In this document: one piece after another, positions 33,176 through 58,689 of the stretch
Numbering within the stretch: the first letter of the stretch is position 1
How the letters are laid out: each line of letters starts with the position of its first letter
Origin: Schistocephalus solidus
Lineage: Eukaryota > Platyhelminthes > Cestoda > Diphyllobothriidea > Diphyllobothriidae
Reading direction: 5' to 3'
NCBI GenBank assembly: GCA_017591395.1
Contig: WEDG01003419.1
Span: 1 to 64,000 of the forward strand
DNA length: 64,000 nucleotides
Made by a program: the position numbers and the translations under genes
Notes under the pieces: generated by a model
What the model saw: the letters and a program-made list of their open reading frames with translations, nothing else
Told to the model about the DNA's origin: nothing
The model's database searches: none

Positions 33176-33770
33176 ACTGTGTGACTACTGTAACATTTCA
33201 TTCTCGCGGACTCTCATAGCGAGTTTTAACAGTCACCAGAATTGTTAGCGCACTGAGACGAGAGACGCTTGGTGTCTAAACCGGGTATTTTTACCTGGTT
33301 CTATGTACTAGCTGAAAAGCGCCTGACTCACACGGCGTGTCTGCAGTAATTATGGCAAATTTTTCGCCACGATTGTAAGGCGAATCTTTTGTGCACAGTT
33401 GGGTTGGCCGTTCAATCAGTATGACGTCAGCCGCTTGGAGAAATGTATTTTCAGTCATGGCACAGTGGACTGCATCAGTGTGGCCCTGTTGCGGAATGAA
33501 ATCCAGGTGTTTTGCTGGAGAGCTGGGGATACACACGTCCGTGTTAGTTCTGGCCGAACAGAGCGGAGAAGCTTATGCTGCGCATGTCATGCCCTGAAAA
33601 CTGATAATTCCCAATTTCCGCCGGTATGTCAGAAGTCCATTATGCAACGTTGAAAGTCGGGATGGTTGGGTTAGCACCTGTAACAGGGGTAAAATTGGCT
33701 GTTTATAGTTACTTAGCTTCAAGTTGCCACTCCAGTGTTACGGTTTTTTGTTCCAACTACCTCTTCCTTC
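33176..33770 (+). other. intron, unrecognised DNA
   Basis: Several short overlapping frames, none with a motif. Confidence 0.45.
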
Positions 33771-33775
33771 TGCTT

Positions 33776-34222
<447 letters not shown>

Positions 34223-35013
34223 CAGTCTGAATACCGCCCAATTATGTGATGGTACAATTTTATATAGTGACCCATAAGTTATACTGAACTTAATGATCGA
34301 TTAACTTTCTGTCGCAACCGTCCTGGTGAACCTGCATGATCTAAATGAATACAGCCTTACCCGTTTTGTGGTGGGTTAAAATTCCACCGAGTTTTTGTCA
34401 GAACTAGACAGTCAGTTAATTTTTTATCGTTAAAATTCAGTGGGATGGCACGCTTGGCTTGGTCGTTTCTGTTTCCGTATGGAAGAAATACTTAAAACTC
34501 GAAACAAACGTATGGCAGAAAGGTTCGTAAATTTTTCAATGGCACAACAATTTGCGTACCACCCTGTAGAATCTGCGCGATTTCGCCATAATTCTTTTAT
34601 TCACCGAGTGACTCTTAATTCTACATAATTCACAAGTTAGAAGCGGTTGAAATTAACCACTTTATACAGTGGAATTGGAAGTCGTTACAAATTAATGAAC
34701 GGAAGTTGTTTTTTTGCGGAAAATTTCGCCAACCGTCATTTTTTTAGTAGCCCAAGTCACTTGAACCTGGGACCGCGCTATGCACCATTTACCTCTTTTC
34801 GCTTTCTTCCATATAAAACTAATTCACTGCTCATGTTTTTTTGGCATAATGCAGGACTAACTAATTGGTGCTTCACGGGGGCTTTACGCTTCCATACTCT
34901 CTCATTCGGTTGATTTTGGGTAAAAAACTAATCGCAGTCCCTAAAAGACCCTAACCCCTTTTCCCATCCCCTTGTAAACTCAGACCCTCTTTTTTACCGC
35001 GTCCTTCCCCTAG
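34223..35013 (+). other. intron, unrecognised DNA
   Basis: No feature seen; it ends in a strong polypyrimidine tract (TTTTTTACCGCGTCCTTCC) before the next exon. Confidence 0.5.
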
Positions 35014-35517
35014 GCTACACGTGACAAGTTAGTAATTCACCTCTCATCTCCCCATATTACAGATTCGGCAGTGGCATGGCTGCACGCTAGTTACAATCGT
35101 CGAACGCCAGCCTGTCTTCTCTCTCCCATGCCTTCCTCGTCAGACGCGGAGCTGACTCTGGCCGCTCACCTTGGTCAATTGGCAGTTCTGCGCCCCGACT
35201 CCTCATCTTCTGCATCCTCGTCACTGCCTTCCTCAGGTCCCACCACTGGCGACTGGGGTCCCCACCTCATCGTTTGTCCCCATGTCCTCTTACCGGCTTG
35301 GCGCAACCGCCTCGCCTACTTTTGCCCCGGCCTGCGCGTGGTTTGTATTGCGGGCGGCGCCGACAGTGGGAATACCGAGCCTGCGGGCACTGGCCGTCGT
35401 CTCCGTAGGAGCATCACACGTGGCCAGGTCAACATCTGTCTCACTTCCTTCGCGGCCCTTCGTTCTAGACCCAGTCGATATTCGTCCATTAAATGGAGCC
35501 TTGTCATTCTTGATCAG
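35014..35517 (+). CDS. EP400: EP400-like exon: SNF2 N-lobe with lost Walker A
   Basis: Acceptor CCCCTAG, donor CAG|GTAGGC, 168 codons, phase 0 at both ends. After a lead-in, AVAWLHASYNRR aligns with DWLxxLYxKxLNG of EP400. The following LLSPMPSSSDAELTLAAHL occupies the place of ILADExGLGKTxQxxxxxAHL, so the Walker A Gly-Lys-Thr is gone. Motif Ia is well kept (GDWGPHLIVCPHVLLPAWRN, then FCPGLRVVCIAGG). INICLTSFAAL-like text (VNICLTSFAALRS) matches the CITSY segment. WSLVILDQ ends the exon at Walker B, with Asp kept and the catalytic Glu replaced by Gln. A Ser run (SSSSASSSLPSS) forms a small insertion. Confidence 0.85.
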
Positions 35518-36058
35518 GTAGGCTTATTGTCCTTTGTCAGAAGTCACCTGCATCTTTGCTCCTAATGCCCGAAAAGCCCGCAAGTATAGAAAAAAAAAAC
35601 TCTTAAGTATGATATCGTCCTCAATGCCTACGTTCGTGTAGCTATTCGTCTTCACTGTTGCTGTTAACTTCAGAAGCCGTTGAAATCGTTCTTTGCTGCC
35701 TTAAAGTGCCTTTTTGTGGGCAGTTGCATTTTCTCTGGCCGTATTAAGCACTCACAGTTGAGCGGCGCACGATCTGAAGGGATGAGTAGAAAATATGGTT
35801 CAAGGATTGCAAAATCACCCGCATTTTTATACGCTCGTTTATTACCGATACCAAGCTATGCTCCAATCTCTCTCTCTCTCTCTATCTTTCTCTCTCTCTC
35901 TCACACACACACGACAGTTCGACCGTCGTAATCCGACGATGTCCACCGTATGCTCATGGGAAAGTTGAGCAGGGACGGTGACTTGCGCGTGATTTAGTTT
36001 AAAGTGATAGTAGACTTGCGCTGCATCTACCGCACTCTCTTCTCTTCCCCCACCGGAG
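35518..36058 (+). other. intron, with a CT/CA microsatellite
   Basis: Start of a 7.3 kb intron. A (CT)n followed by (CA)n tract lies at 35866-35912. A similar tract occurs on the other side of the RTE-like element at 41189-41228. Confidence 0.6.
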
Positions 36059-36395
36059 CCCGGTGTCAAAACAGAGTCAAGAAGACCGGAGGCGGGAGAG
36101 GACGCAGGTGGCTGGCGCGGCTGGGTCCCCTATGTGCTAGCCGCCCCTAGGCGTGCCACCACACCTCCATGTTCGGCATTTGTTATGGGAGCGCAACCCG
36201 AATAACGCCTGCCGTGCCCTAATTTGGCCCCCGTGTTGGTCCAACGCATCTACCACGTGGCCCGTTTAGGGGGCACACCTGAGTCCGGTGTCAAGACAGA
36301 GCCAAGAAGACCGGAGATGGGAGAGGGCGCAGGTGGCTGGCGTGGCCGGAGCCGCCCCTGGGCGTGTCACCACACCTGGCTCGGATCCCACGGAG
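36059..36395 (+). repeat. two-unit tandem duplication, about 100 bp per copy
   Basis: 36059-36168 and 36288-36395 share GGTGTCAA(A/G)ACAGAG, CAAGAAGACCGGAG, GCAGGTGGCTGGCG and CACCACACCT, with a start-to-start distance of about 229 bp. A second pair nearby shares AGCCACGG and CGTGATAG (about 36490-36548 and 36855-36910). Confidence 0.65.
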
Positions 36396-37199
36396 TAAGA
36401 GTGCCATAAAGGTCACATTAAGAAGGAGCCGTTGTAGCCTGACTCTCAGTCCGCCAGTCACACAAAACACACATTGTGCTGACCATGCAGTCCGAGTTAT
36501 CCCGTCAGTTGGCAACCTTCCAAGCCACGGCTTTTAGCGCACCATGATAGTTTCAAGCGCGTCAGATTGTTTATAGTGAGGAAAATGCGCTGAGCTCTCG
36601 ACCTCTCTCTCTCCCCCACCCCCACAGTCAGACTACTGTCCGAGCCGGTCAGTTGCCTGATGTGGGAGTGGGTGCGTTGGCTGACGGAGCGGCGTACCCG
36701 TCTTCGCGTGCCACAGCACGACCTGGCCGCCATAACGCACACACCAGGATTCACAAACTCAGGGGATATGGAGCAGCCATCGCCGTCTGACTCCCAGTCC
36801 ACTGGTCAGCCATTCGACACACACAGCACATACACTGAGCCGACGGCGTGGCCTGATGTAAGCGTCAGATTGGCAGCCTTCCCAGCCACGGTTTCTAGGA
36901 AACCGTGATAGACTCAGTTACATGGTAATGGTGAGGGTGTTGTCGATGTATTGGTGTAGGTAGTGTACGGTGATGTAACTTAGTCTCCGGTGGTTTAGCC
37001 TAGGTTTTTGTGAATGCGCATGTTTCCGAATAGGCCCATGCGATGAGTGAATGCACGAGGACAGTAAGGGCAGTGAAGGCGGCGATCTCTGCTGTGTGTT
37101 GGAGCTCCAGGCACTGGTTCACCAGTCTCTGTACGATGGATTCGCAAGTGACCGACCAGGCCGATGCGTGAGGTGAGTTTGCGGTCGCAATGAGGACAG

Positions 37200-39230
37200 T
37201 TAGGCGATAGTCCCCATCGTTGATGCTAGTAGTGGTGGTGGCGGTGGTGGTGTTGGGGTAACACGTGCTGAGCGTTGTGATGTTGTCTCGATGATGGTGG
37301 GACTAATTGAATTGATGGCAAGGGTGAGGGTGGGGGAGTCTGAAGGAGGGTTGGCAGAAGTTGACGTAGAATTTTGAATTGTCGGATTGTTGATGCATTG
37401 CGTCCAAAGATGTCCGACTAGGCCTATTCGCGCGCGGAAGGTGCGGAGACAGCGCGGGCATGTTGGAAGGGCCTGGGCATTGGCGATGTTGGTCCGCGGT
37501 GCTGGTGACTTTCGTGCCGCTCTTTTGGTCTTGGCAGCGGCGATCCTGTTGGCTTCGTAGATTGCTGCCCCTGTCTTCACTGTTCTCCTCCAAGCCGATC
37601 GATTCCGGGCAAGGTCCTCCCAGGACTCCGGGTTGATCTGAAATTGCTTCAGGGAGGTATTCAGAGTGTCTTTGTAGCGTCGTACTTGACCCCCTTGTCG
37701 ACGAGAATCCATGGCGACATCTCCGTAGAAGAGTCGTTTGGGTAGCTTTTCGTCGTCAATCCGCACAAGGTGACCGCTCCAGCGCAGTTGCAGTTGTTTC
37801 AACTGAGCGTAAATGCTGAGAATGCCTGTTCGTCCTAGCACTTCCGTGTCCGGTGTCCTGTCTTGCCAACTCAGCTTTAGTATTCTGCGGAGACAGCTGA
37901 GGTGGAAGTGGTTGAGCTTCCGCGCCTGCTTTTGGTAGATCGTCCACGTCTCCGCTCCATACAACAGCGTCGGCAATATGACAGCTTTGTACATCTTGAG
38001 TTTAGTGCTGAGGTGGAGACCATGTCGATTCCAGACCACATTTTGCATGCGTCCAAAGGCTTGACTGGCTTTAGCGATCCGATGGGCGATCTCATCGTCA
38101 ACTTTCGTGCTGCGTGAGAGATTGCTGCCTAGATACGTGAAGGTATCCACAGATTTAAGTTGGGCGCCATTGACATTGATGTGAGCTGTGGTGTAGAGAG
38201 TGTTGGGCGACGGTTGATGCATCACAACCGTTTTCTCAGTGTTGATGCGAAGTCCGAAGTTGTCACAGGCGGCAGCGAAGAGGTCCATGCTCCTTTGCAT
38301 TTCCTCTTCTGTCGTTGTATCAAGTGCGCAGTCGTCAGCGAATAGAAGTTCGTGAATGGCGGCTGTGGAGACACGCGAGCGGAAGTGCATCCGTCGTTGG
38401 TTGAGGAGGCGGCCGTCCATCCGGTAGGCGATGCGGATCCCGGGGCGTTCGTCACGGTAGGCATCTATTAAAATGGCAGAGAACATGAGGCTGAAGAGGG
38501 TAGGCGCAAGGACGCAGCCTTGCTTCACTCCGTTGGTCACTGCAAATGCTTCAGATACTGTCCCGTTGTCAGCAACGCGCGCCATCATCCCGTCGTGAAG
38601 CTGACGTACCATATGTGTGAACCGTTCAGGACAGCCGAATTTCCGCATGATTTTCCACAGCCCGTCTCGATTCACCGTGTCAAAGGCTTTCGTCAGATCT
38701 ACAAAGGTAGTGTAGAGGTGAGTTCGCATCTCTTGGCACTTCTCTTGCAGCTGGCGAGCAGCGAAGATCATGTCGATTGTTCCTCTATGTCGTCGGAAAC
38801 CGCATTGGCTTTCCGGGAGCAGTCCTTGCTCCAGGTGAGCGTTCAAGCGGTTGAGGAGAATGCGGGCGAAGATCTTTCCAGCGATGTTCAACAGCGAGAT
38901 TCCTCGGTGGTTGTTGCAGAGTTGGCGGTTCCCTTTCTTCTTGTAGAGGTGGACAATGGTGGCGTCTTTGAAATCCTGAGCGACTTTTCCTTGGTGCCAC
39001 ATCTCCTGGAAGAGTACTGTGAGTCGATTCATCAGCTGGGGTCCACCATGCTTGTAAATCTCAGCTGGTATTGTGTCCGAGCCAGGTGCTTTCCCGCTGG
39101 AGAGTTGCTGCACGGCCCTGATGGTTTCTTGGAGAGAGGTCGGCGTTGATTTCCACTTCAGGCAGGCGATCGATGGCGGCGTCGGAGATGGTGGAGGACT
39201 GGTTGAGAACGCTTTGAAAGTGTTCTGCAC
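37200..39230 (-). CDS. RTE-like reverse transcriptase with C2HC finger (open segment)
   Basis: This is the longest open frame in the window, 676 codons, running on the minus strand from 39230 to 37200. Motifs in order: [40 protein letters not shown], a palm [37 protein letters not shown], and an intact F-A-D-D catalytic box (38331-38342). Then come [10 protein letters not shown], the thumb YGAETWTIY, and RLRWxGH-type [21 protein letters not shown] zinc finger [22 protein letters not shown] follows at about 37463-37396. RT copies the element's RNA at the nicked target. The upstream start is a frameshift boundary, not a true start codon. Confidence 0.9.
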
Positions 39231-40435
39231 ATCGCGTTAGGATTTGCATCTTCTCAGTGAGCAGCGTCCTGCCGTCGGCACTGACAAGTGGGGCGGCGCC
39301 TTTGACGGGAGGTCCGTAGACAGTCTTGGTGGCGGTGAAGAAGTTCTTCCATTCGTTTCGGTCCGCGTACCCTTGGATTTCCTCGGCTTTGCGCGTCATC
39401 CAGGCATCCTGCATCTCCCGCAGCCGTTGCTGTACAAGGCGGTGACTTCGGTAGAAGGCTATCTTGTTTGCAGAAGTAGGGCGATCGATGTAGGCTTTGT
39501 GTAACTGGTTCTTCTCGACGAGCAGAGCGTTGATAGCTGCGTCGTTGTCATCAAACCAGTCTTGGTGCTGACGAAGTGCGTGGCCAAGGACATCCATGGC
39601 AGTGGATTGAATGGTATCTCTCAGCTGACACCAGCGGTTCTCCATGGAGATGCCCGCATCGGTGACTGGAAGGTTAGCTAGACGGTTGGCCAGTTCGTTG
39701 TTAAAATGTAGATGGTGAGCAGGCACATTCAACAAACAGTATTCAACTTACCTTGTGGTCGCTTACCTTGGGGTCTCCTGCGGGGTTGCAGACGGAGCCT
39801 CATCTTGGAGATGACGAGGCGGTGATCCGTCCATCCATCGGCATCGGGGATCGCCTTTGTCACCAGCACGTCCTGTTTATCTCGCCTCCGGACGAGAAAA
39901 TAGTCCAAGAGGTGCCTAGCACTCCTCTCCACGAAGAACGGTCTGTGCCGACGCGGGCGTTAAAGTCACCAAGGACAATTAACTTATCCACCTTCGGCAC
40001 AGTCGCCAAGAGGGAGTGTAGATCATCGTAGAATTTGTCCTTCGCCGCATCAGAGCTCGTCATTGGTGGAGCTTAGGCACTAATGATGGTCGTGAACTTG
40101 TCTCCCCGAAGTGGCAGGCGGAGGCACATAAGGCGATCATTTATAACCTGCGGTAGACAGGGCAGACGTCCCACAATGCCGTTCCGAATGGCAGAGGCGA
40201 CACCAGCGTCGCGTCTCTTTGCCTTTGGTCGGCCGCTCCAGAAGAAGGTGTAGCCGGCACCCACCTCCTCCAGCTGACCCTGTTCAGAGAATCGGGTCTC
40301 GCTGAGAGCAGCAATGTCAGCCTTGTGGCGCGCCAGTTCCCGAGCGACTAGCGCCGTCCTTCGTTCCGACCGGTTGCTCCTCCGATTGTTTAAAAGGGAA
40401 CGAACATTCCAGGCTGCTAGTGTGAGCGGACTCAC
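39061..40435 (-). pseudogene. RTE-like endonuclease region, broken
   Basis: Three open pieces on the minus strand make one endonuclease: 40435-40073 (NVRSLLNN, LSETRFSEQG, SGRPKAKRRDAGVA), 40063-39860 ([14 protein letters not shown]), and 39932-39061 ([40 protein letters not shown], then the linker). It is broken by a stop codon, a deletion and a frame change, so no nicking activity can be made from this copy. Confidence 0.85.
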
Positions 40436-40594
40436 CCGAGCAGTCGGGAGGGTACCCCGAAGGGTACGGTTGGGGGGATTTGGAGAGGAGTTGTTGTTGA
40501 TATTGTTTAGAGTTTTTTGACCGCATGTAATTGCAGTCTGCTAGCCACGGTCTGCTGCAGCTGTCGTGAGACCCAGCATTTGTTTAGGGCACCT

Positions 40595-40620
40595 TTTCTA
40601 GCCCCCTCCCCAGCGAGGGG
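40595..40620. repeat. short perfect hairpin in the RTE-like leader
   Basis: CCCCCTC and GAGGGGG flank CCCAGC near 40601-40620. It may be part of the element's 5' untranslated RNA. Confidence 0.4.
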
Positions 40621-40774
40621 GTAAGCAGTTCTATCCCTAAATAGGGCTGCTTAGTCACCCAGGCGGCTACCGAACTCCACTATGGGCCACGATTTGGGTT
40701 AGTGAGAGAACGGCCGATTCGCCTGGGCCGCCTACGTGATTGCATGTCGCGCTCACCGTAGGACTTTTCGACCG

Positions 40775-40950
40775 TGGGGAAGGAGGAAAGGGTGAGGATA
40801 GAGGAAGAAGAGGAGGGGTAGAAGCAAGATTAAGAAGAGAAAGAGAGAGGAGGGGGTGGAGGAGAAGTAGGAGGGGAGAGGGAAGTGGGGTGGGAAAAGG
40901 AGAGGAGGAAGGGCAGGGAGGACGGGAGAGGGCAAGAACAAGGGGAAGGG
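40775..40950 (+). repeat. purine-only tract, about 175 bp
   Basis: Almost every base on the plus strand is A or G, with only a few T or C interruptions. Such tracts can form triplex DNA. It lies just upstream of the RTE-like leader. Confidence 0.8.
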
Positions 40951-41099
40951 AGCAGACGTACCGGGTGTGAAGACGCACACAACACCGGAGACCCTCACCT
41001 GGTCTAGCCCGCAAATCGTGACGGTTGCCCGGCGTGTGGCCGCTGGGAAGAACCCAACTTCTAGATCCCACAGGTGAGAGTTGGGTACTAGCTAGAGGC

Positions 41100-42790
41100 G
41101 GCCACCGGAGCATTCACCACCTATACGAGACAGATGGAGCAACCAAATACTACCTGTGTGATGCTTCCCATAACTAGTACCCATACACCCCTCTCTCTCT
41201 CTCTCTCTCTCACACACACGCACACACCAGTGGCGTTAAACATCATGACTAAGTAAATCACCACACTTATGCGCGTGTTCGTACCCTCAAGTAGTCTTTT
41301 TTAACCACTGACACATCTGTTAGCATGTGTGTGGGAGGAGAGCTAGTTTAAACATCCTACGCGACCTTTCATCTTACCATATCTAGGCTTCCACGTTGAA
41401 CCTACTATTTCGATAATTCGCTTTTCTGTGAATAATTATTATCGAATCACGAACGACTGCGAACGCCCAAACAGACGAGCTCGACGAAGGGCATGCGAAA
41501 AATACTGTTTCCGGCGTCGCAATCACATCGCTCCGTCATATTACATCGACATTTCATGCCAGAGGTCCCCGTTTTCACACCGCCATTTTACCCTGCGTCC
41601 CTCTAGGAAGCTCATTTTTTCCCCTAATCGGAACCAGCATATGTGAACTAATAACAAAATCGGTTTATGTATATCCACTCCTAGCAGTTAACAGGGTTGA
41701 GCGAGTTTCCTCCCGCTTCTTGAAATAATGATTCTACTGCCGGTTATACTAGTGTAGTTCGAAGGGGTGTGTGGGTCCCTCAGTTTTTGCCATTTCTGCT
41801 GCTTTGTTATACGGTTGTACTTCAGGCTAGGCTGAGTGTTGCTAGTTATGATTTAATTTGATTCAAAATTTGCGGCGCTATTTCGAACTTGTCCGTTTTC
41901 TAGACACTACAAGTCTCGGGATCGAGCAAGATCCTAACCACGTTAATGAAGGTAACGCGCCCACTTGACTTCTGTATATACCTAACTTCATAAGGCATAC
42001 GGCGTACTGATGATAGGTTACAACCATGAAACAGCGGTCTGCGTCTTGCCTGTAGCACCCTTAGTAACCTACCTAGGGCAAGTCTTGCTTCGGAATGAAC
42101 GATAGCCATTTTTCACATTTAAAAAGTATGACATAGTTACATCCTCACACCAACACCTGCCACTTGACACCAACTCAGAGTGAGTAACTCAGGTTACAGC
42201 AGCGCCTCGCCGATAGACTCTCTGGTCGACCAGTAGATCGGGGATTACTAATACTGTTGTGGAAGCCGACTTACCTGTTTAGTTCCTCAAAGGAAACCAT
42301 CTTCGTGCTCTGGATTCCGAACAGACGAGGTTGCATTCGCATTTAGTCATCCGGTGATTCCCAAAAAGAACAAAGTGAACAATTAGCTCGAATGGGTTGC
42401 AAATTAAAAATTGCTGTAGCTTCACCACCGCTTGGCAGATGACGGCTGTTAGCGTACCTCAATTTATTGGAGTTTCTTTATTGTTGCAGCACTTGCCTGA
42501 GCCACGTGCAGCTCTTTCCGCAATCAATTAGCATTCGTGGCACTAGGTCTGTGCTCCGAAAATGCACCCACATGCGGTAATATCAACCAAGCAGTTTCTG
42601 AGGGAAGGCCATTCACGTGGTTCTCAGTGCAGACTGTTGCTGTCTTATTTCAGCGCAGGGAAGCCGTAAAAACGATTGATCCACAAGGGAAACTTGTGTT
42701 CCGATAGGAACAGCTCTGTATCCAGCAGATCTTTGCCTATTTTATGACGCAACTGTAACTCATTTTCACTGAACGGTGAATTTCGGGTAG
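41100..42790 (+). other. intron, CT/CA tract and unrecognised DNA
   Basis: (CT)n(CA)n at 41189-41228. No other feature seen. Confidence 0.5.
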
Positions 42791-42973
42791 GGGTTACTTT
42801 ATGTGGCCTCCCGGTGGGATATGGGAACAGCAAACGCCCGTGCCAAATTACAGGGTTTGGGTGTAGAAGGTAGACTTAGTGCTAGAACAGAGGAATATTT
42901 AGTCTTCCTGCAATTCGACGTGAGGTCGCACGTAATGCCGGTCGTTGAACGTTCGTATTCCCGCTTCCTATCG
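42791..42973 (+). CDS. EP400: EP400-like exon: end of SNF2 N-lobe (motif III region)
   Basis: Acceptor TCGGGTAG, donor TCG|GTAAGA, 61 codons, phase 0 at both ends. GLLYVASRWDMGTANARAKL follows the Walker B residue pair of the previous exon. RLSARTEEYLVFLQFDVRSH then VMPVV takes the place of RLLLIDSPLHNTFLELWTMVHFLVP. Leu, Phe, His and the final hydrophobic-Pro spacing are kept, but the S/T-G-T-P-L-Q-N type motif III is not. Confidence 0.72.
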
Positions 42974-43427
42974 GTAAGAGCCGTAGAAGTAATCCAGACA
43001 AATAATTTCTTTATCAGTAATGCCATTCTCGTTTCTTTTCACATTTCGTGCTCTCGGAACATGTCATGGACCTCCTCTTGTATTACTAAGCTACATCCTT
43101 CAAGTTTAACCCGCTATTAACCCTTGCTAACGCCATTAGTTGCAGCGTCAGCAAACTCTCGTCAAAGAAGCGAAAGGATATGCCTAGAAACCACAACTAA
43201 TTATTTTTAAATCTTAGCCCATTAGCTTTGTTCCCCTATCTCCGATTCTTTCACCAAGCTGTGTACGAAGGGAAAGTTGCAGTTCTCAACGTCTTTTTCA
43301 CCAAAACCTAGCTTAAGTGGTTTAATTTCTTCAGCCTGATAAACAAGACCAGAATCTTTAATTGATCCTTTAACCCCCAACCTCTGGATCAGCAGTCTAA
43401 TGTTCGAGTCTTTTATCCACCCTTCAG
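42974..43427 (+). other. intron
   Basis: 454 bp from GTAAGA to CCCTTCAG. Nothing else seen. Confidence 0.6.
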
Positions 43428-43991
43428 GCCCAACATCTCACTTCTGTCCGCTGCCCTTCCGCTTGTGCCACCGAAGACGAGAATGAGAGACCCCTATCTC
43501 GCAGTGACCGCGCTCTTTCTTTTGCGTACAACCAATACGGTGCCGCAAGCACCCAGCCGACCGTCTGTTCGGGCAGTGAAGGGAGTAGCTTGGGTGATGT
43601 GCAGAGGGGAGGAGCCGTCGGTGCATCCTCCCCTCTGGACTTCAGGCCGGCGAGCGCAAATCTGCTCAACGGCGCTGATGCTGCACCCCTCTCCGTCGAG
43701 AACGATGCACTTACGCACACCGCCTCCACTACTTCTACCCTCCCCGAGCTGGTCGAGCTCATAATTGAGAGCCTGAGCTCAGCTCGTCAACGGATCCTCA
43801 TCTACAGTGCTGACTTGCCTGCTGGCCTCTCCCACGTTCGCACGCTCTTTCACCTCCTCCTCACCTCCGCCAACCCCACGGAGGCCATTCTGAAAGAGAC
43901 GGCCAACTTAGTTGGATTGCCAAGTATCTTTAAGACTTCCGCCGCCGTCGACGCCGCTGCCTCCACCAATCACATGCTGTCTCGAAATGAG
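43428..43991 (+). CDS. EP400: EP400-like exon: insertion after SNF2 N-lobe
   Basis: Opens AQHLTSVRCPSACATEDENE in phase 0. About 100 residues are disordered and have no counterpart I know. A helical part then reads LPELVELIIESLSSARQRIL and IYSADLPAGLSHVRTLFHLL, which falls where EP400 has the stretch between the N-lobe and the FILRR motif. The end is uncertain. GAG|GTAGTA gives 43991, while a textbook GC donor (AAG|GCAAGT) nine bases later gives 44000. Both keep phase 0 and join the next exon. Confidence 0.72.
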
Positions 43992-44000
43992 GTAGTAAAG

Positions 44001-45568
44001 GCAAGTGAAATGCCCTTTCACGGTGGCCTGATTGTGTCCAGTTTTTTGTTTGTTAAAATCGGAGAAAGTAGAGACAAGGGTAACGGCAGCTTTTAAGTAA
44101 TCAACTTCAAATGAAGTCTTTTGGTCAAAATAGAACGTATTTCAATGTAAACCTACCTCTAACAATAAGCAAGCTTTTCAGCGATAATAATTTCCATGGG
44201 CAAATTCGACCCCGTTCATCCTGGATGACGAACTGGTTGAGCGTGACGTTCCTAAGTGTACACCAAAAAGCGTCCATCAACGCTCGTATTCCGTTCCCTA
44301 GTTATGTCACATCAACGAGCGTACTTTCTACTCATAGGTGTGGTTTGGGTTAATGGAAGCCCTTTTGTTGACCTCTCCGCAAGTCCAATCAAAGCCCCCA
44401 GACCACCGCCCTCCCGTCGCTAAAACAATCGGTTGAGCCGTAACTCGTTAGAAATGAGTTGCATGGGGTGGCCTAGGGGATCGATAGTTTTCCATAGTAC
44501 CTGCATCCGAGGGTAGACGTTCCCATCCACCCCACCGACTCACCTGCTTAGGGCTCTGAGATTGTGCCCGCCAACGGTGAATGAATGAAACCTCATTGAA
44601 TGGTGGGTAACACTCGTAATGTGGTAATAGTGCTGTGGCGTGGAATCTTGTTTAGGGGTTGCCGATTTACCAGCGGGGTGCCCAGCCAAGCCTGCGTGAT
44701 CTGCAACTGCTTATTCATCCGACCCCAGAGCCTTTGTAGGTCGTGGCACGTAATCGCTGAGGGCCGTTCCACTATCCACCATCGACGGGCGTGCTGACTT
44801 AAGCCAACAAACAGACTCAACCTTATTGACACTATTGTCATGCCGGAATGAGGGTCTTATTAAAATGATGATTACCTACTCGGAAGAAATAGGAATTCCA
44901 TTAGAAAAAAATAGTCTCCATTTCATTCCTTATCGAAAGGTCAAAAGTTGCATCATGCTAAACAATGTGTGTAGCACGCTTGTGTCGGTTAGTTGCTGTT
45001 ACCAGTTTTGTGACTATTTAAGCTATGCCCGGTCGTGGTCTTATTTTTCTACCAATATAGATGCTGTTTTCGGCACTTTTATCCTAACCTCCCCCTTCCT
45101 TTTACCCCTGCCCCCGATAAGAAAGATTGCAGTAGCTTTCCTAAAAGATAAGCCTCAGCGACAAATATCTCCGAATCGCTACGTAACATTCAATTCTGTG
45201 GGAGTGGTGGCAACCCAAGAATTTTCAATTTTTTTTAAATAAAACGATATTGTTTTACTTCATAAGTAGGCCTAAAGCTGGAATATGCGCACGTTGATCT
45301 AATTGGTTTCATCTTCAAGCGGTAGTGGTCGACCACCCGCCAGGTCAAGGTACAGCTTCGTTCGTCCACTTTTTGCGAAGTTCTTACACGGATGGGTGTA
45401 TGATTCTGTCAGTTCTACCGCAAAAGACTCGTTAAGGCTACGTTCCCAGGAGCACTGGCCACCCGAACTGTCAACTCTATATGCTGCCAGCACAAACTTG
45501 CGTTTTTGTCTCCTCTTTTCTCCCTGTTTTCATTTTTGTGAGCGAGCCCTTTTCATCCTGTCATACAG
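44001..45568 (+). other. intron, unrecognised DNA
   Basis: 1.57 kb without a supported feature. Open frames here are short and unlike known families. Confidence 0.5.
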
Positions 45569-45699
45569 ATGCTGGATCCGTTCATATTCCGATTCGAAGA
45601 GGATGAGGAGTGGGATTTGTTTGTCAAAGAACGCATCGTATCTTGCAGTCTTTCAGAGCCCCAGAGGGTCCTCCACGACCTCATCCTGAGAGATAAGTC
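45569..45699 (+). CDS. EP400: EP400-like exon: FILRR-equivalent helix
   Basis: Acceptor TCATACAG, donor TC|GTGAGT, phase 0 to phase 2. MLDPFIFRFEEDEEWDLFVK, ERIVSCSLSEPQRVLHDLIL and RDKS align closely with EP400's QPFILRRTKRDVEKQL... RLSNRQKALYEDVI. The Pro-Phe-Ile is kept but the basic RR-TK becomes R-FEEDEE, a charge reversal at a position that normally contacts DNA and positions the lobes. Confidence 0.87.
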
Positions 45700-45794
45700 G
45701 TGAGTGCTGTGTTTTTTTTGTTGTGAGCTATATCTGTCTTCGCAACCGCCTGATTTTTGGGCTACACAAACCAAACTTGCGTCCCCGCTTTTAG
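45700..45794 (+). other. short intron (95 bp)
   Basis: GTGAGT donor, CTTTTAG acceptor; the split codon TC+G gives Ser. Confidence 0.8.
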
Positions 45795-46570
45795 GTGTGA
45801 ACGTGCAGTAAAGTCAGGCAGTTTGGTCGACCTTCTGACCACCATGTCAGCCGGTGTCGGTGCATGCGTTCACCCCTGTCTCGGTGCCGGCAGCGCTGTC
45901 AGCCAGTCGAAACTTTTTCAGTTTTCCCTCGCGGGCCTCCTCGAAGATGCCAGTCCGCCCCCAGGACCTTTGCGTTTTCCACTTACTTCGCCGACGACAG
46001 CTTCAGCAGGCGTACGAGCCGCAGGTTTTGGGGGCAATCCACTGTCCTTTTGCACTACCTCAGATGTCCTCACCGCGGTGCGGCAGTTGCGGGCCGAGCA
46101 GGAACAACCCCTCTTCCTCACCAGCGCGTTATCTCTCTGTTCAGCTGTCGACACACCAAAGCACTTGCGTCAGCGATTGATTGAGCTGCTGCCACAGCCG
46201 GCGGATTTGGAACGCGGTCGCCCGTCCGCGGAAACGGCACCAACTGGGACCTTGACAGAGAATTCAGTAGTGAAGACGGTGGACCAGTCTCTGCTTCTTT
46301 CCATCTCCGAGAATCGCCCAAACGGCGTGCTCAAGCGCCATCCCAACCGAAATGCCAAAGATGCCCTCAACTCTGCAGTGCTTCGGGCCAAACGTATTCG
46401 TCTTGCAGACTGCAATGGTGACGACCACGAAGAACCCATGCCTGAGGGTGTGAAACGGGACCCCGAGTGTTCGGCTCTCTCTCGGTCCATGGGACTACCC
46501 TTTATCAGTAGTGAGCTGTTGGATATGCTTCTTTTGGAGGAATCCGCTTACGCCTCGGCGACCCAAAGAG
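45795..46570 (+). CDS. EP400: EP400-like exon: SNF2 insertion region
   Basis: It continues the split Ser codon: CERAVKSGSLVDLLTTM aligns with EALKSGHFVNVLSILVR, and ACVHPCLG with the RICNHPGLV motif (Cys and His-Pro kept). PPGPLRFPLTSP matches AGPLEYPSAS, and VDTPKHLRQRLIELL matches the KKIPRKLMEEI segment. The remaining half is the long EP400-type insertion between the lobes, with low-complexity text and a basic stretch (AVLRAKRIRLADC). The exon appears to end at 46570 with a GC donor (AGAG|GCGAGT) in phase 1. Reading on would add a run with no match before a stop at 46713. Confidence 0.82.
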
Positions 46571-46667
46571 GCGAGTTTGCTGTCCTCAATTCCCCCCGTT
46601 CTTTCTGCTGTTCAAAGCACTTCCTGAAGCCATTTTATAGTGTGCTCTCTCCCCCCACCCCTTACAG
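46571..46667 (+). other. short intron (97 bp) with GC donor
   Basis: GCGAGT at the 5' side, a polypyrimidine tract and CTTACAG at the 3' side. Phase 1 plus two bases restores Ala. Confidence 0.65.
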
Positions 46668-46801
46668 CCCTGAAACCGGAAGGTTTACCGCCTGTTGTCA
46701 AATCTGCATTTAACTCCTCCCCCATGAAGAAAAAACTGGTCTTATCCGATGGATTAGAGATGACGGCCGCTAATGAGCCCCCGTTATCTACTGATTCTAA
46801 G
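46668..46801 (+). CDS. EP400: EP400-like exon: insertion region
   Basis: LKPEGLPPVVKSAFNSSPMK, then KKLVLSDGLEMTAANEPPLS and TDSK. Donor AAG|GTGAGT, phase 0. No domain recognised; basic then acidic low-complexity text, probably a flexible link. Confidence 0.72.
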
Positions 46802-46886
46802 GTGAGTCCCAGTTTCTCATTCCCGTCTGTCTGATTGTCTGAAATCCTTCTCCTCGTCTCTCTCTTTCTCTCTCCTCACATTTCAG
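46802..46886 (+). other. short intron (85 bp)
   Basis: GTGAGT to CATTTCAG, with a TCTC-rich tract. Confidence 0.8.
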
Positions 46887-47107
46887 GTTGCTCATAATCT
46901 GGTAATCCAGAAGAAAAGGATCATGTGCATGCCCAAGGACTTTTCTGATTGGTACTCTTCGCTGACCTGCCAGTTGCTCCTGATTCCCAGCGTCGGCCAA
47001 GCTGTGGGAAGGCACTGTAACTCCCCCGTTGGTAATGCAAACGACAACTACGACAATTATATCTGGAATGTCGTGGGACACCAGCTTAACGACCTTGTCC
47101 GTACTGG
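46887..47107 (+). CDS. EP400: EP400-like exon: pre C-lobe segment
   Basis: VAHNLVIQKKRIMCMPKDFS, DWYSSLTCQLLLIPS, and a Asn-rich stretch ending NDLVRTG. It resembles EP400's LDxIYLVNERRCxxxPVYGxDLLxIC region just before the C-lobe. Phase 0 to phase 2; donor GG|GTAAGT. Confidence 0.77.
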
Positions 47108-47195
47108 GTAAGTGAACAGACATCCTTTTGGCATCATTCATTTAATAAACAGATCAGACAGCTTGCTGATTCTGTTTTTTTTACTGACTGTCCAG
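47108..47195 (+). other. short intron (88 bp)
   Basis: GTAAGT to ACTGTCCAG; split Gly codon GG+T. Confidence 0.78.
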
Positions 47196-47440
47196 TCCAT
47201 CGGCGTTATCAAACCTACTGTGTGTTCGCGATTCTGTCGTCGCCACGCCCCCCCTTCTGAAAACCTGTCTTCCCTCAGTGCAATCTCCCGATTCCTTTTG
47301 CCAATCCCTTCTGGTGGCTGTCGCGGAGAAAATAGGACCATACTTGCAATATCTCCTTCCCTTCCTGCCCTCATCGCGCTGGCTAAGCCGGTCTGCGTCG
47401 TCTCACCCTCGTTTCGCCTTGAGTTTCACTGCTTCCTCGG
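47196..47440 (+). CDS. EP400: EP400-like exon: lead-in to SNF2 C-lobe
   Basis: It reads PSALSNLLCVRDSVV near the start, then VAVAEKIGPYLQYLLPFLPS and finally HPRFALSFTASSG. The last part matches EP400's PELRLVQFDSGKL motif, with GKL completed by the next exon. The donor TCGG|GTACGC ends in phase 1, exactly what the exon at 49972 needs. The open frame continues to a stop at 47617, but that extra text has no match and would remove the SGKL junction. Confidence 0.78.
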
Positions 47441-49971
47441 GTACGCATGCCAAGTCCTTGCCCACTGCTGTGTATAATGTTCTTGTTCCTTTTTGGGACA
47501 CAAACACGCGTCTCTTTGCCGAAGCAGCTTACTTTTTCCCCTCCGAAACGGTTAACCCTCTTTCCGCCGCAAACTTGGCGTTCCTCAGGGCTGTTTTCTT
47601 ATCACACTCGCAAACCTAACATAATCTTGAAACTGCATCTCAAAACTTCATCCGTACTTTTCACTGACTATAAATAAAATGTATGTCCTCATATTCGCTC
47701 TCTGCCCGGCTTCTTGAAATTATTCGTTGCGCCAGATAAGGGATGCATTGTCTACTTTTCGGAGCAACGCGTACGCGATGCCTACAGCTGGCGATTTTTT
47801 GATTGGTCGTAGCCAATTGGTGGATTGCATCCAATTACAGTACCGATAATTGTCCAATGAGCTTATAAAATCTGCCTTGAGTCTGCAAAAAAAAAAACTT
47901 AATTGGTCGATATTTAGCACACAAATCCTTTACAGTTATCCCAGGTGTGGCAAACGCACTGCTGAGTCGGCACATACAGCCTTTTTTGCGTGGAAGGCCT
48001 GACTTTTGGTGTGTAAACTACAACACACTTCATAGTTAGGCGCTGAGCTTGCGTAAGTGGACCGTGCCACATCTTTTTTCGGATCTTTCGAATATAGGCT
48101 TGACAAAAGTGCTACGAATCTGAATATTCCCACATTTTTGAACATTTGAGCACTATATTTACACTTTTTCCTAGCCGATTGGCGCTTCAGAATTCATAAT
48201 TTGCTGGTTATAAATTATTAAATAATCCTCATAACCGCCTGACCGTTCAAATTGTCACTACATTTTGTGATCCTTGCACTGACAGTTCGTTTTTCACATT
48301 AACACAACATCTATAGTCATTTCATGGTACAGTGCACTCGAGGCACCGTCCTTTAAAAAGTCAACTCCACCAGCGCCTCCAGCTAAACCAGTTTAGAAGT
48401 TTGATTACGACGTTTACAGAACTATTGTGGGCAGTCTTTAACATTAGTGCAAATTATACGTTGTGTTAAGGCCGAGCCGCAATGTTTTTATTCTTATCCA
48501 ATGACTGCTGCTGAAAGTAGTTAGTAGGCTGGTTACGAGCACGCCTGACATTTATGGTGTACTTTCGAAGAAAAGAATCTTGTGTGATGCAACAAGTTCC
48601 TGTCTTAAACTTAGGAGGATCGTGCATGTTTATTCTCATAAAGCTAAATTCATGGCTGGCCGTCGTTCATCCGGGTCTGTGTCCTTGTATAGTCGGTAAT
48701 GCTTGCTATTAGTGGTCATGGGAAGGTCAGCGGTCGGTATGCAGAATGAGTGGGCCATCTGTTGAGGACATGCGGTGCGTACTCTGTTTAACTCGACGTT
48801 GTGTGAGTATGTCTCTGAAACAGGTAACGAACCCCGATGCCATTGTCTCCCCCGTCGTGGTCTTGTCACCAAGTTTGCGACCACTGCCATTCACGAATTA
48901 TCCTTTAGATCACCTGCTTGTCGCAGGGTTGCATCTGTCGACGCTTAGTAGTGGAATTTAATCTCTGCAGGGACTCCGAGATTCAGGAGATTCAGGGATA
49001 ACTTACGACAATTTTCAATATGCAATTACATGATCTGCAACAAAATTATGATGTTCGTCGAAGGGCTACTCTTCTCCAAGACCGCAGAGTTTCAATGTTA
49101 TGATGTATGTTATGCACAAAAGACTGACCAGGTGCTGAGGTCCTTCATAGAATAAGCATGTCACCTTTTTTCGGCGCTTCCATCACAATAATTTCCCGAT
49201 GCCTTGGCTTAGAAAATAAACCATCCCTGTGAAATTCTACGGTAGTTCTATGAATTTAAAAATTTTAATCGCGTCCGTGGCAATTGTAACCAGCATATAT
49301 CTTATTTTAAGTAGTTATTCGCGATGAATGTTAGCTGGCTGGTTCCATCTACCAGGGCTAATCTTAACTCGCAACGAAAATGAACAAGGTAGACTGTTAA
49401 CTCCTTCCAGGCCACCAGATGGACTTTTATGCCTTGACGACATACCACACCTTTGGCCTGCCTTGAACATTTGGCCTTTACCGCTGTTCTAGAAACATCA
49501 AATAGCTTTCACCAACTCAATGTCTCCAACTCCTGTCCAGAATTTTGCTGAAAGAGTTTTGATTAAAGCACTTGTAAGCCAAACCTGCGCCCATCTCTGA
49601 CAGATAGGATAACGGACTCTGAGCTTAGAAGGAACCGGCTGGGATAGGCGCGTTGTCTCCCTGCCAGATGTCCACGCTGGCATTTATCAGTTATTTAATC
49701 TCAGTGTAAGTCTAGTTCTCCTTCCCTTGCCGCTACTTAAGCGTCACCTGCACTGCGCATTGTAGCCGTAATGACCTTATTTTTGCCAATTTAGTAATTT
49801 GTACACGTGCTTTGCTTTGCATTGTTTAAAGCCATTTTTATCTCAGAACACCCGGAAGGTATTAATTGTTTTACTACGTTTGGTGCTAGAAAGACTTTTT
49901 TCATGAAGATATCTTCGATCTATTATACTGTACTTACCCCTAGCACACCTCATTTCCCTTCGTTCCTTCAG
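47441..49971 (+). other. intron (2.5 kb), unrecognised DNA
   Basis: No element or exon supported. It ends with a good polypyrimidine tract (CATTTCCCTTCGTTCCTTCAG). Confidence 0.55.
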
Positions 49972-50381
49972 GTAAGCTGGTGGCTTTGCAAAACCTCCTG
50001 AAAGACCTAATTTCAGGTGAGTCACCACCGCCTGTCAGCGACCACGATACCCAAAACAATGTGTACCACTCGCGTGTACCCTGGCGTCCGCGGTGCATTC
50101 TCCTCGTGGCCCACCGAACGACTTGCCTCGATCTTCTCCAGGCCTGGCTCACATCCCATCCCGTATTCAGTGCTTTTTCTCACCTCCGTCTGCCCTCAGA
50201 TCACCTGGATACGACCGCGGAGTTGAACAGCTGTCTGGAACGCGTGAACAATTGGCCGCTCGGCTCACACGGTCCCCTCCTCGTTCTGGTTCATGCACGT
50301 GCCCCCAGTCTCAGCTTGGCTGCTCTTAGGGCCGGGCCGGACACCCGCGTTGTTGTCCTGGATGCGGATTGGCGCATAGAG
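49972..50381 (+). CDS. EP400: EP400-like exon: SNF2 C-lobe with altered motif V
   Basis: Phase 1 completion gives G-KLVALQNLLKDL, matching GKLEALAILLQKLK. CILLVAHRTTCLDLLQAWL occupies motif IV (RVLILSQMxxMLDILExFL). LRLPSDHLDTTAELNSCLER equals YVRIDENASSEQRQELMRSF. GPLLVLVHARAPSLSLAALR covers motif V, where S/T-H/R-x-G-G/T-x-G-I-N-L is expected, so the key Gly and Asn are absent. VVVLDADWR keeps the D-x-D-W that follows. I place the end at GAG|GTTGTC (phase 0), which is a weak donor; text past it (VVDGLRTKF) is possible coding. Confidence 0.82.
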
Positions 50382-50496
50382 GTTGTCGACGGCCTACGCA
50401 CCAAGTTCGTTCATCTTCACTATTTAATGTTAACATTGCCGCTCGTACTGTTAGCGTTTTTGGTACTTTTCCTGGTTGCATGAGACACTAGACACA
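50382..50496 (+). other. start of a 7.3 kb intron
   Basis: Nothing recognised before the inverted-repeat element. Confidence 0.5.
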
Positions 50497-50532
50497 CGAA
50501 GAAGGAGACAAAATCACTAGCTTTATTAACCT

Positions 50533-50566
50533 GACGTTTCAGATTCTCACTCGAATCCATCATCAG
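50533..50566 (-). ncRNA. hammerhead ribozyme-like core (left arm)
   Basis: On the minus strand: CTGATGA (50566-50560), a short hairpin, then GAAACGTC (50540-50533). The CUGANGA and GAAA core boxes and the GUC cleavage triplet are intact. The self-complementary ACGT would form stem III only between two copies. I did not find a convincing stem I. Confidence 0.6.
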
Positions 50567-51699
50567 ATACAAAGTCAGATTTGCATATTGGATCGCCCAG
50601 AATTTGCAGCATTTATAGGATGAAGTTGCTAGACCACTACATGCCTATCAACATTGGCAGTTCCCGAGTGCATCGCAGCTAATTGCATGTGGTGTGATAG
50701 TTGCAATATGCATTTGTCATGCCGTTGCTGTGCGCCAGCCTACTTGTCAAGATTATCGTTTCCCACGCTCATCGCATGTGGTACGATGATAGCCCACAGT
50801 CGAGTTGCTGACAGCCGGATTTCGTCATCCATTTGAGCTCTTGGGTAATTGGGCTCGCCGACATTGGTACCAGGAGCAGTAGCCACCGCGTGTTCTCCGC
50901 GTGGCTAACTAATTTGCCCAGGGAAAGTCGTAACACCGAATATGGAGCCGGCAGGTTGTTGCGCTTGTTGATTGATTGATTACCGGGAAACCATGACTCG
51001 AGCAGTTTGCGGCTCACAAGGTTGTCGCCTCTAGCAACACTTCCGGCCTCATCAAACTTGTATGTACGCCCGGGTCCCGTAGAATGAGCCGCGACTTGGG
51101 AGCTGGCGTCGTTCGTCCTCACTGCTGCTGCATGCTCAGCTATTCGCGTTTGGAGTAGTCTTCCAGCTTCTCCGACATATTTGCTTTGCCCTCAACTGCA
51201 CCAGCCCCGATAAACGACCCCAGATATTCTCGCCCTGGCAGTGGGTCTTTTGGCCTCATGATCTGACACCTTATGTTTGCTTCCGGTCTGTGTGCAACTC
51301 CAATGCCAAGGGGTGTGAGAAGGCGGATGACGGCTTCCGAGAGCTTCTTCACGTACGGCTGGATTTTGTCTCGTCTCGTTTGCATAGGCACCGGTTGACG
51401 AAGTTGCGCGGGTAACCTTTCGTTTCAAACATCCGTCGAAGATATTGTAATTCGGCAACCTTGTCTTCCTGTTCACTGCAGTGTGTCTTCACACGCTGGT
51501 ATAGTGCCTTTACGCACCTGCGTTTGTGATTTACTGAGTGTCTACTGTTGTAACGCAGTATTTGCGTCGTGTTTTTTGCCTTCCTGAATACTTTGGTTTT
51601 TAGGTAACCACAATCTTTGCGGGATCAGGTGCTGGAATTCAAATAACATCTCAACGCTATCTTCCCGGACATAAAATTTACGATCGAGGAAGAGGAAAC

Positions 51700-52480
51700 C
51701 ACCAACTGACCTTTCTTGATGTCCTCGTCTACCGCAAAGATTGTGGTGGCCTAAAAACCAAAGTATTTAGAAAGGCGACAAACATGACATAAATATTGAG
51801 TTATAACAGCGGGCTCTACTATACGTGAAGAATCTCTCGGAAGCCGTCAGCCGCCTTCTCACACCCCTTGGCATTGGAGTTGCACGCAGACCGGAGGCAA
51901 CCATAAGGCGTCAGATCATGAGGCCAAAAGACCCACTGCCAGGGCGAGAATATCTGGGGTCGTTTATCGGGGCTGGTGCAGTTGAGGGCAAAGCAAATAT
52001 GTCGGAGAAGCTGGAAGACTACTCAAAACGCGAATAGCTGAGCATGCAGCAGCAGTGAGGACGAACGACGCCAGCTCCCAAGTCGCGGCTCATTCTACGG
52101 GACCCGGGCATACATACAAGTTTGATGAGGCCGGAAGTGTTGCTAGAGGTGACAACCTTGTGAGCCGCAAACTGCTCGAGTCATGGTTTTCCGGAAATCA
52201 ATCAATCAACAAGCGCAACAACCTGCCGACTCCATATTCAGTGTTGAGACTTTGCCTTGGCAAAGTAGTTTGCCACGCGGAGAACACGCGGTGGCTACTG
52301 CTCCTGGTGCCAATGTCGGCGAGCCCAATTACCCAAGAACTCAAATGGATGACGAAATCCGGCCGTCAGCAACTCGACTGTTTGCCATCATCGCACCATA
52401 TGCGATGAGCGTGGGCACCGATAATCTTGACAAACAGACTGACCGGTCAGAAAACTATCACACCACCTGCAACTAGCTGC
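51700..52480 (+). pseudogene. Penelope-like ORF fragment, right arm
   Basis: The plus-strand frame pieces are RT end (FLDVLVYRKDCGGLKTKVF, 51713-51770), a connector (LSEAVSRLLTPLGIGVARRP), GIY-YIG endonuclease start (SGVVYRGWCS, stop, QSKYVGEAGRLLKTRIAEHA), and C-terminal SSQVAAHSTGPGHTYKFDEA to NNLPTPYSVLR. The nuclease would cut the host target in active elements. A frameshift, a TGA and a deletion leave it dead. Confidence 0.8.
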
Positions 52481-52588
52481 GATGCACTCGGGAACTGCCA
52501 ATGTTGATAGGCATGTAGTGGTCTAGTAACTTCATCCTATAAATGCTGCAACTTCTGGGCGATCCAATATGCAAATCTGACCCTGTAT

Positions 52589-52622
52589 CTGATGATGGAT
52601 TCGAGTGAGAATCTGAAACGTC
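52589..52622 (+). ncRNA. hammerhead ribozyme-like core (right arm)
   Basis: CTGATGA (52589-52595), stem II GGATTC with GAATCT (52597-52602 and 52609-52614, one G-U pair), GAAA (52615-52618), then CGTC. Penelope-like elements are known to carry such motifs. The T at 52596 would be bulged; stem I is weak by eye. Confidence 0.65.
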
Positions 52623-52658
52623 AGGCTAATAAAGCTAGTGATTGTGTCTCCTTCTTCG

Positions 52659-53640
52659 CAACTGCTTCTTGTACCTGGCCTTCAAATTTCGCACAACAGC
52701 CGCGAATTTTACCGATATTATTTCGGTGTTTAACACAGCTGTGAGGGGTCCGGCTTACCCCCGTGTCCCTCAGCTAGTACCTTGCTGGCAGTATGATATA
52801 TCATGCATCTCTATTGTATACTATGAATATTATGCCGTTATCCCATTATCCCAGCTATTTACTTCATCTGTCGTTCTGCGCCTATAGACCACAGCATAAA
52901 GTGATTTACTACAAGTTAGTGATTAATTTTGCAGGAAATTGAAAAGCAGTCAGTTTGGTACTCTTCACGGTAGAAAGATGTACACATTCGTTTCTCTATC
53001 AGTACTCATCGTCGTTACATCACTATGTAGCTGACTTTATTACTCCGGTGATAAGGACTCCTGCTATAGTGGAATTGTAATATACTTGTTGAATAATTAA
53101 CCATACCGTCAGTATGGGGGCTAACTAAAAGTCCAGACACGTGTTTCATTCATTCTATACCACCCCATGTTGCAGCTGTGATAGATTCCGTTAATCCACA
53201 GTTCCTGATTAATTGTAACTCAAATTTTCACATGAACTTTCAGACTGAGTCCGAAAAGCTTTATTCCGCAGGATTTACTCTAAGTTCGCACATTTATTTT
53301 CGAGGCGATTAAGAAGCTTGACACGAAAGCACAACTCTTCTATCAGGAACGAGTTTATTACCTGGATTCTTTTGGCTTGTGTGATCTGTTGTCAGAAACT
53401 GTACTGCAAAAAAAATCAACTCGAACGATCCAGGTAGTTGTCTAGGTCGCCTTAACTTTTCTTGTTTCGACTCTTTACAGTTTTCATTGTTCCTCGCCCT
53501 TCTGTTGGATGGCTTCTCAGATGGCAATTTTTATTGTTCGGCTCTTCTCAGTTCTTCTCTCCCGTCGACAATTCCCACAAGAAGCGCAAAACATAGGTCC
53601 ATGACCGCATGGAATAGTGGGCAACAGTGGCCATATTGCA
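52659..53640. other. intron, unrecognised DNA
   Basis: No supported feature. Confidence 0.45.
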
Positions 53641-53699
53641 ATGGCTTCGGGTATTTTTTATAGGTTGCTGATGTTCTAGCTGGCTGCTTGATCTACGAA

Positions 53700-54032
53700 T
53701 AGAGGTAAGCAGACGTTGGCAGTGAGACGGGGTGACGATTTATCACAAGTGGCTGCCCACACCTACGAAACGGGTCACGCGTTTATTCCTGCAGACACTA
53801 CGATAATTGCCCACGTCAGAAGCAAGATAAGCCGAGAATTCCTTGAAATCTGGACCGCGGTCAATCGATTTATCGGTCTGCAGCCGGCATACAGAGCCCT
53901 GCGCAGTCAACTCCGGTTAACTTCACTGGTGCATGAATGACCTCTATCCCTTATAACTGTTGACTGTTTTTGTTACCGCTTTCATCTTTGACGGTGGGCT
54001 CCAGTAAGAGTTCCAAAGCTTGCACGAATAAA
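53700..54032 (+). pseudogene. Penelope-like C-terminal fragment, second family
   Basis: AVRRGDDLSQVAAHTYETGH, TIIAHVRSKISREFLEIWTA, VNRFIGLQPAYRALRSQL at 53716-53920 is the classic Penelope-like C-terminus (EHKLAVRRGD, VAxHxxETGH, SRxFLExW, PAYRxLR). It ends in AATAAAACC near 54029. Different sequence from the inverted-repeat family. Confidence 0.8.
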
Positions 54033-55560: not shown

Positions 55561-55599
55561 ATTTGCATAATCCGACGACAACTAGGCCCCTTGGCCGCC

Positions 55600-58680: not shown

Positions 58681-58689
58681 GTTTCGCTC

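Follow-up and report, generated by a model that had tools for sequence, protein, structure and literature searches.

Can an animal EP400, the scaffold of the NuA4/TIP60 acetyltransferase complex, dispense with its Snf2 motor? The question is raised by a multi-exon gene on the forward strand of contig WEDG01003419.1 of the cestode Schistocephalus solidus (assembly GCA_017591395.1), of which positions 1 to 64,000 were analysed (the window in the following). The gene spans approximately 23551-61341 of the window and continues past it along the same contig (C2822, 103821 bases); it is far longer than the stretch 35014-50381 considered in an earlier note on this DNA, which corresponds to exons e to l only. 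In our judgement, the gene is probably this animal's EP400, with a dead Snf2 motor and a protein that is still under selection and would serve as a NuA4/TIP60 scaffold. We are led to this reading by the loss of the ATP-Mg residues (GKT and DE) and of the coupling motifs III, V and probably VI from a protein in which the reading frame, the HSA domain and structural stretches of the lobes persist, and by the finding, elsewhere in the genome, of a distinct gene for SRCAP whose motor motifs are intact.

Catalytic motifs and exon structure

The earlier note had described a SNF2 domain stripped of its catalytic residues, and alignment with Swr1, SRCAP and EP400 bears this out motif by motif. The Walker A sequence LADEMGLGKT is replaced by the serine- and aspartate-containing LLSPMPSSSD (LADEMGLGKTIQ in SRCAP and Swr1, LLSPMPSSSDAE in the window gene), and the exchange lies within the uninterrupted 504-base exon e (35014-35517), which is aligned along its length. 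In Walker B, LILDEAQ has become VILDQAQ and the glutamate is gone. The alignment is firm at this point because an intron that splits the window sequence into DQ|AQ occurs at the same place and in the same phase in the SRCAP paralogue (LILDE|AQNIKNF). Motif III reads IYSADLPA instead of LTGTPLQN, the FILRR box (QPFILRRTKRDVEK in EP400) has lost its basic residues and is acidified to DPFIFRFEEDEEWD, and motif V, LSTRSGGVGVNLTGADT in the relatives, lacks G and N in the window gene (VHARAPSLSLAALRAGPDT). Two further elements, the Q motif and motif IV, have disappeared as well. Human EP400, in contrast, keeps GKT and DE, as the note had stated, and motif VI as well.

GxGKT/S is absent from the forward frames between 22000 and 64000, as are DEAH/DEAQ/DEMQ, GTPxQN and RIGQ from all six frames of the window, with the limit that a motif interrupted by an intron would escape. 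Motif VI was not recognised when 3169 segments within 50383-57730, each bounded by AG..GT, free of stops and 30-260 bases long, were scored (best score 32, unconvincing); since it begins its own exon in the SRCAP paralogue (62420 to 63170), a diverged motif VI exon could have escaped. What the motor retains includes GDWGPHLIV, the CLTSF stretch, VKSGSLVDLL, VHPCL and DTRVVVLDADW. Where EP400, SRCAP and Swr1 all agree on a residue, the window gene preserves it in 9 of 36 columns belonging to motifs versus 60 of 150 columns outside them (one-sided p = 0.067, or 0.023 if the five unmatched motif VI columns are scored as lost). The combination that marks an active Snf2 ATPase (GKT, DE and motifs III, V and VI) was not found in the gene, and its motor should neither bind nor hydrolyse ATP. 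A structure predicted for exon e alone was uninformative (predicted local distance difference test score, pLDDT, of 34).

Upstream of the motor, exon a (23551-24224) encodes the pre-HSA region and the N-terminal half of the HSA domain and ends at a GC donor (AAG|GCATGT); 23551 is the point where the reading began, the exon start being unfixed, with an AG just upstream of 23549. Exon b (28945-29085) contributes the C-terminal half of the HSA domain. Exons c (29576-30373; post-HSA and linker) and d (30458-31189; linker reaching the motor) are stop-free with phase 0 at both ends. The N-lobe begins in exon e, which terminates in LVILDQ, and continues in exon f (43428-43991), which starts with the AQHL that completes the DQAQ box and then runs through a long insert to QRILIYSADLPAGLSHVRTLFHLLL, the motif III region. 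The FILRR and brace region, MLDPFIFRFEEDEEWDLFVKERIVSCSLSEPQRVLHDLILRDK, lies in exon g (45569-45699), and VKSGSLVDLLTTMSAGVGACVHPCL (EP400 LKSGHFVNVLSILVRLQRICNHPGL) stands in exon h (45795-46597), where the large inter-lobe insertion begins. This insertion fills exons i (46668-46801) and j (46887-47107) and ends in exon k (47196-47550), all in agreeing phases; the alignment score of its end was reached by 24 of 1000 shuffles against EP400 and by 113 of 1000 against SRCAP. The C-lobe occupies exon l (49977-50381), which lacks motifs IV and V and ends in DADWRIE, and exon m (57734-58183), which carries VYRLVTESDTRGSIE and has a likely phase-0 donor after 58183. A probable exon n (60826-61341) would encode part of the post-motor region.

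The introns and the upstream flank hold repetitive sequence. A long TCC/ATC simple repeat is found at 33770-34230 between exons d and e. The intron between e and f houses a LINE-like retroelement on the reverse strand (37200-40540) with a frame of 678 amino acids that, by eye, resembles reverse transcriptase, while the upstream part of the element is split over several frames. An inverted pair of near-identical frames of 140 amino acids (KYVGEAGRLL.TRIAEHAAAVRTND...) lies between exons l and m, at 50769-51191 on the reverse and 51986-52408 on the forward strand, with a weaker copy near 55640-55830; these frames may be akin to the GIY-YIG endonucleases that Penelope-like elements encode. Several broken retroelement-like frames are also seen by eye towards the 5' end of the window, at 4450-5514, 10006-11166 and 14043-14939 (reverse strand) and at 6571-7364 (forward strand).

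Assignment to EP400 and a separate SRCAP gene

On sequence grounds, membership of the Swr1 class is certain. Swr1-class Snf2 lobes are present together with the large inter-lobe insertion (exons h-k), and the Pfam SNF2-related domain was matched with E = 1.1e-10 (41.6 bits, cut-off 24.9, profile positions 52-142 of 290; E = 4.5e-10 for the open frame of exon e). Human EP400 (9cae_A) was the best of 28 listed PDB sequences (E = 1.5e-13), followed by Swr1 (2.7e-6), in a list that held neither full-length EP400 chains nor SRCAP. The match consists of three pieces in the expected order, HSA (21.5 bits), N-lobe (19.8 bits) and brace (11.1 bits, by itself weak).

The ends of the protein add to this picture. 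A query composed of the second HSA piece of exon a, exon b and the start of exon c matched the Pfam HSA domain with E = 2e-7 (31.7 bits, cut-off 23), and the pairwise z-scores of the domain are 15.8 against EP400 and 15.7 against SRCAP. The positions of human EP400 R807, K809 and H811 in the pre-HSA region are occupied by R, R and H, H811 being taken as the H of HWDY by the numbering of the EP400 chain. Downstream of the C-lobe, two exons that join in phase (C2822, 71934-72086 and 74032-74320) yield a putative EP400-like SANT domain, PEWSLYEEAGLFQCVAKLQNIPL ... TITPNFNLAEFFLNNYQPTRVYRSCRQC compared with EP400 PEWLISEDWALLQAVKQLLELPL ... HTPNWDLVSDVVNSCSRIYRSSKQC (score 78, 0 of 5000 shuffles), and the second of them was the best of 974 open reading frames in 58001-94000 (score 54, next 43). 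Pairwise match and position thus suggest an EP400-like SANT domain.

The genome (603.7 Mb in 8019 contigs, candidate lists being lower bounds) was searched for further copies. A second, motif-complete EP400 or a duplicate, which the earlier note had named as a possibility that would turn the gene into a decaying copy, was not among the matches listed; the nearest other gene there is a SRCAP paralogue with intact motor motifs, on contig C2448. In its readable parts the HSA domain, ILADEMGLGKTIQ, LILDE|AQNIKNF, LTGTPLQN and CHRIGQ are intact. It is the nearest by identity among 36 matches to human SRCAP, with 71% (128 amino acids) and 88% (66 amino acids) in the N-lobe, 57% in a short middle piece into which some intron sequence has been read through; two pieces of the C-lobe reach 79% and 81%. 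The remaining SRCAP matches (among them C1397 with 43%, C3609, C4727, and C6582 with 65% over 60 amino acids of the C-lobe) seem to belong to other Snf2 classes. With its motor lost, the window gene lacks the intact Swr1-class motor that marks a SRCAP, and the gene on C2448 fills that place. The paralogue's conserved brace exon (LHKVLRPFLLRR...CNHPNL) could not be detected in the interval separating the adjacent exons (45084-62091), although this interval contains no Ns; it has either been omitted from the assembly or really been lost, and the assembly is therefore not perfect.

This paralogue also serves as a control for selection. In the HSA domain, the window gene is as near to human EP400 (27 of 76 residues) as the paralogue is to human SRCAP (27 of 76), whereas in the motor lobes the respective identities are 96 of 345 (28%) and 269 of 345 (78%; p = 4e-41). 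We consider it a better control than the count of stop codons, which is zero over the 1732 codons of the 12 modelled exons b to m (28945-58150, exon m being counted up to 58150), compared with 55 and 70 in the other two frames. When neutral decay of the human EP400 lobes was simulated down to 25% identity, their 572 codons acquired 22.8 stops on average (15-32 in 30 runs), and already 14.5 at 50% identity. The open frames, the introns and an HSA domain as near to human as that of the paralogue lead us to reject an old or processed pseudogene. To the earlier note, too, the gene did not look like a pseudogene, but the one-base frame shift in the HSA domain described below had escaped it.

Counter-evidence and alternative explanations

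Several observations weigh against a motor-dead EP400 under selection. The motor lobes are equally near SRCAP and EP400: the z-scores for the N-lobe are 16.4 against EP400 and 19.0 against SRCAP (0 of 500 shuffles each), and the C-lobe (exons l and m) is similar to SRCAP (z = 7.2, 0 of 500 shuffles) but only weakly to EP400 (z = 1.9, 30 of 500). The lobes by themselves do not tell EP400 from SRCAP and are too diverged for placement in the family tree. The EP400-like SNF2 domain of the earlier note is accordingly retained here as an EP400-class protein with human EP400 as its best match, but not as a domain closer to EP400 than to SRCAP.

Lobes of this kind would also suit a lineage-specific duplication of a single Domino-like gene, in which one copy kept the motor and became SRCAP-like while the other kept the acetyltransferase scaffold ends. 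Such an origin, which would be compatible with a scaffold function, is possible, though we hold it to be rather unlikely. Window gene and paralogue share not only the DE|AQ or DQ|AQ intron but also a phase-0 intron in the HSA domain with an unusual GC donor and LAY directly after it; these introns show common descent, though they may be ancestral and would suit an old duplication as much as a lineage-specific one. The HSA domain of the window gene is identical to that of the paralogue in 30 of 76 residues and to that of human EP400 in 27 of 76. On the other hand, among the 97 columns in which the window gene has left the ancestral state, it shares a residue that EP400 has changed relative to SRCAP and Swr1 in 17, where a BLOSUM null predicts 9.9 (p = 0.017), versus two SRCAP-changed residues with 2.2 expected, although the rates for EP400 and SRCAP do not differ significantly (p = 0.73), which limits the argument. 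With the paralogue included, 9 of 57 EP400-derived but 0 of 7 paralogue-derived residues are shared. Furthermore, the SANT match lies on the contig of the window, and no comparable one was found on the paralogue contig C2448 (32001-92000).

The HSA domain as assembled is not contained in one frame. Exon a carries a one-base frame shift at approximately 24147-24152, with GLWSATRLPKVMEPHRGRVHWDF in one frame and LLDEARWMATDFSEERKWKKQTARK in the next; the second piece has 57.7% identity to human EP400 over 26 amino acids. A genome-wide HSA profile search gave two matches above the cut-off, C2448 and C3609, and the split HSA of the window was not among them. Removing the 23-base GT..AG stretch at 24112-24134 as an intron would restore the frame, but it would be very short and delete conserved HSA residues; splicing from the donor at 24112 to exon b would likewise put exon a in frame only by skipping 113 bases of the HSA domain with loss of conserved residues, and both possibilities are disfavoured. 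The DNA of this exon is single-copy in the genome, so that there is no second allele to decide between an assembly error and a recent lesion. Either is conceivable from the sequence, and the imperfect assembly, which misses a conserved exon of the paralogue on its contig, makes an error possible.

If the frame shift is a lesion, it might be the last step of a recent decay, in which this lineage ceased to need EP400, its motor was the first part to erode and the function was finally lost with the HSA domain. It would suit this view that the EP400 post-motor domain, like motif VI, was not recognisable, the similarity of exon n being reached by 116 of 1000 shuffles and a scan of open reading frames being unconvincing. 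Pfam and PDB searches with the SANT piece gave no matches, a point against the favoured reading, and searches of the region beyond the SANT exons returned nothing convincing. Within the window gene, moreover, the HSA domain is not significantly better kept than the dead motor (27 of 76 versus 96 of 345, p = 0.21), and the contrast between the two derives from the paralogue and not from the window gene alone. The count of zero stops is not independent evidence either, as exons were chosen partly for openness. The agreement of exon phases reported in the earlier note extends to in-phase joins at AG/GT sites throughout exons b to m, but three of the joins, those after h and k and the one before l, use weak sites picked to fit the phase. 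Even so, the absence of stops, an HSA domain no further from human than that of the intact paralogue and the possibility of an assembly error make recent decay unlikely in our opinion. An intact motor supplied to some transcripts by an alternative or trans-spliced exon is very improbable, because Walker A is lost inside an uninterrupted exon aligned over its full length and no extra exon with an intact Walker A or DE box was found in the forward frames of the window; positive support for it was not found either, although the separate motif VI exon of the paralogue illustrates that one exon could be missed.

A proposed motor-dead scaffold among known complexes

A motor-dead EP400 that acts as an acetyltransferase scaffold while SRCAP exchanges histones would be the simplest account of the sequences. 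The pre-HSA and HSA regions would still carry the actin/actin-related protein and DMAP1 module, the SANT end would still contact TRRAP, and the dead motor, together with the insertion it contains, would serve as no more than a spacer or structural base. Such a complex, whose formation is itself part of the proposal, would acetylate histones via TIP60 with nucleosomes unmoved, and H2A.Z would be deposited by SRCAP alone.

The proposal can be set beside known systems. Human EP400 (p400), scaffold of NuA4/TIP60, has the same order of pre-HSA, HSA, N-lobe, large insertion and C-lobe, followed by the SANT domain that the putative SANT exons resemble, and the R, basic and H positions of its pre-HSA region are matched by the window gene; it differs in its intact motifs and in its post-motor domain, which in human TIP60 helps to tether the acetyltransferase. 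In structures of human TIP60, the HSA domain forms a pillar that supports BAF53a, actin, DMAP1 and EPC1, and R807, K809 and H811 contact DMAP1 and the post-motor domain (PMC11995519). According to the same paper, purified human TIP60 exchanges H2A.Z, and loss of the motor would thus not be cost-free in every animal, a further point against the favoured reading. Drosophila DOM-A has an HSA domain and a motor like the window gene and a SANT domain where the latter has a putative one; its ATPase is described as unneeded for H4K12 acetylation, since an ATPase-dead DOM-A restores this mark, a finding that in the authors' view may apply to metazoans in general (PMC7239659). DOM-A differs in possessing an intact motor, as does DOM-B, the two being splice forms of one gene. 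SRCAP and Swr1 share HSA and Swr1-class lobes with the window gene, and intron places are shared with the paralogue; they differ in their intact motor and, on the paralogue contig, in the missing SANT match. Fungal Eaf1 is, as the earlier note had stated, an HSA-SANT scaffold; it serves NuA4 and lacks a working motor (PMC7239659; PMC11995519), but it is a small protein from which the motor domain is absent altogether, whereas the window gene has an eroded one. We infer by analogy that the cestode gene may represent an independent route to the Eaf1 design. Among the papers listed by literature searches on these proteins in flatworms, none was concerned, to judge from title and abstract, with EP400 of a flatworm.

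The chances are about even, in our estimate, that the division of labour is a clean one, with SRCAP alone keeping the nucleosome motor and EP400 persisting, its ATPase eroded, as a motor-dead NuA4 scaffold, a natural counterpart of the DOM-A variant with a dead ATPase and convergent with Eaf1. The role of the EP400 motor inside TIP60 is unsettled, H2A.Z exchange by purified human TIP60 (PMC11995519) standing against the reportedly unchanged H2A.Z levels upon EP400 depletion and the acetylation restored by ATPase-dead DOM-A (PMC7239659). If the favoured reading is true, evolution itself would show that the acetyltransferase job needs no EP400 motor, and S. solidus would provide a system in which the acetyltransferase and motor activities are genetically separated.

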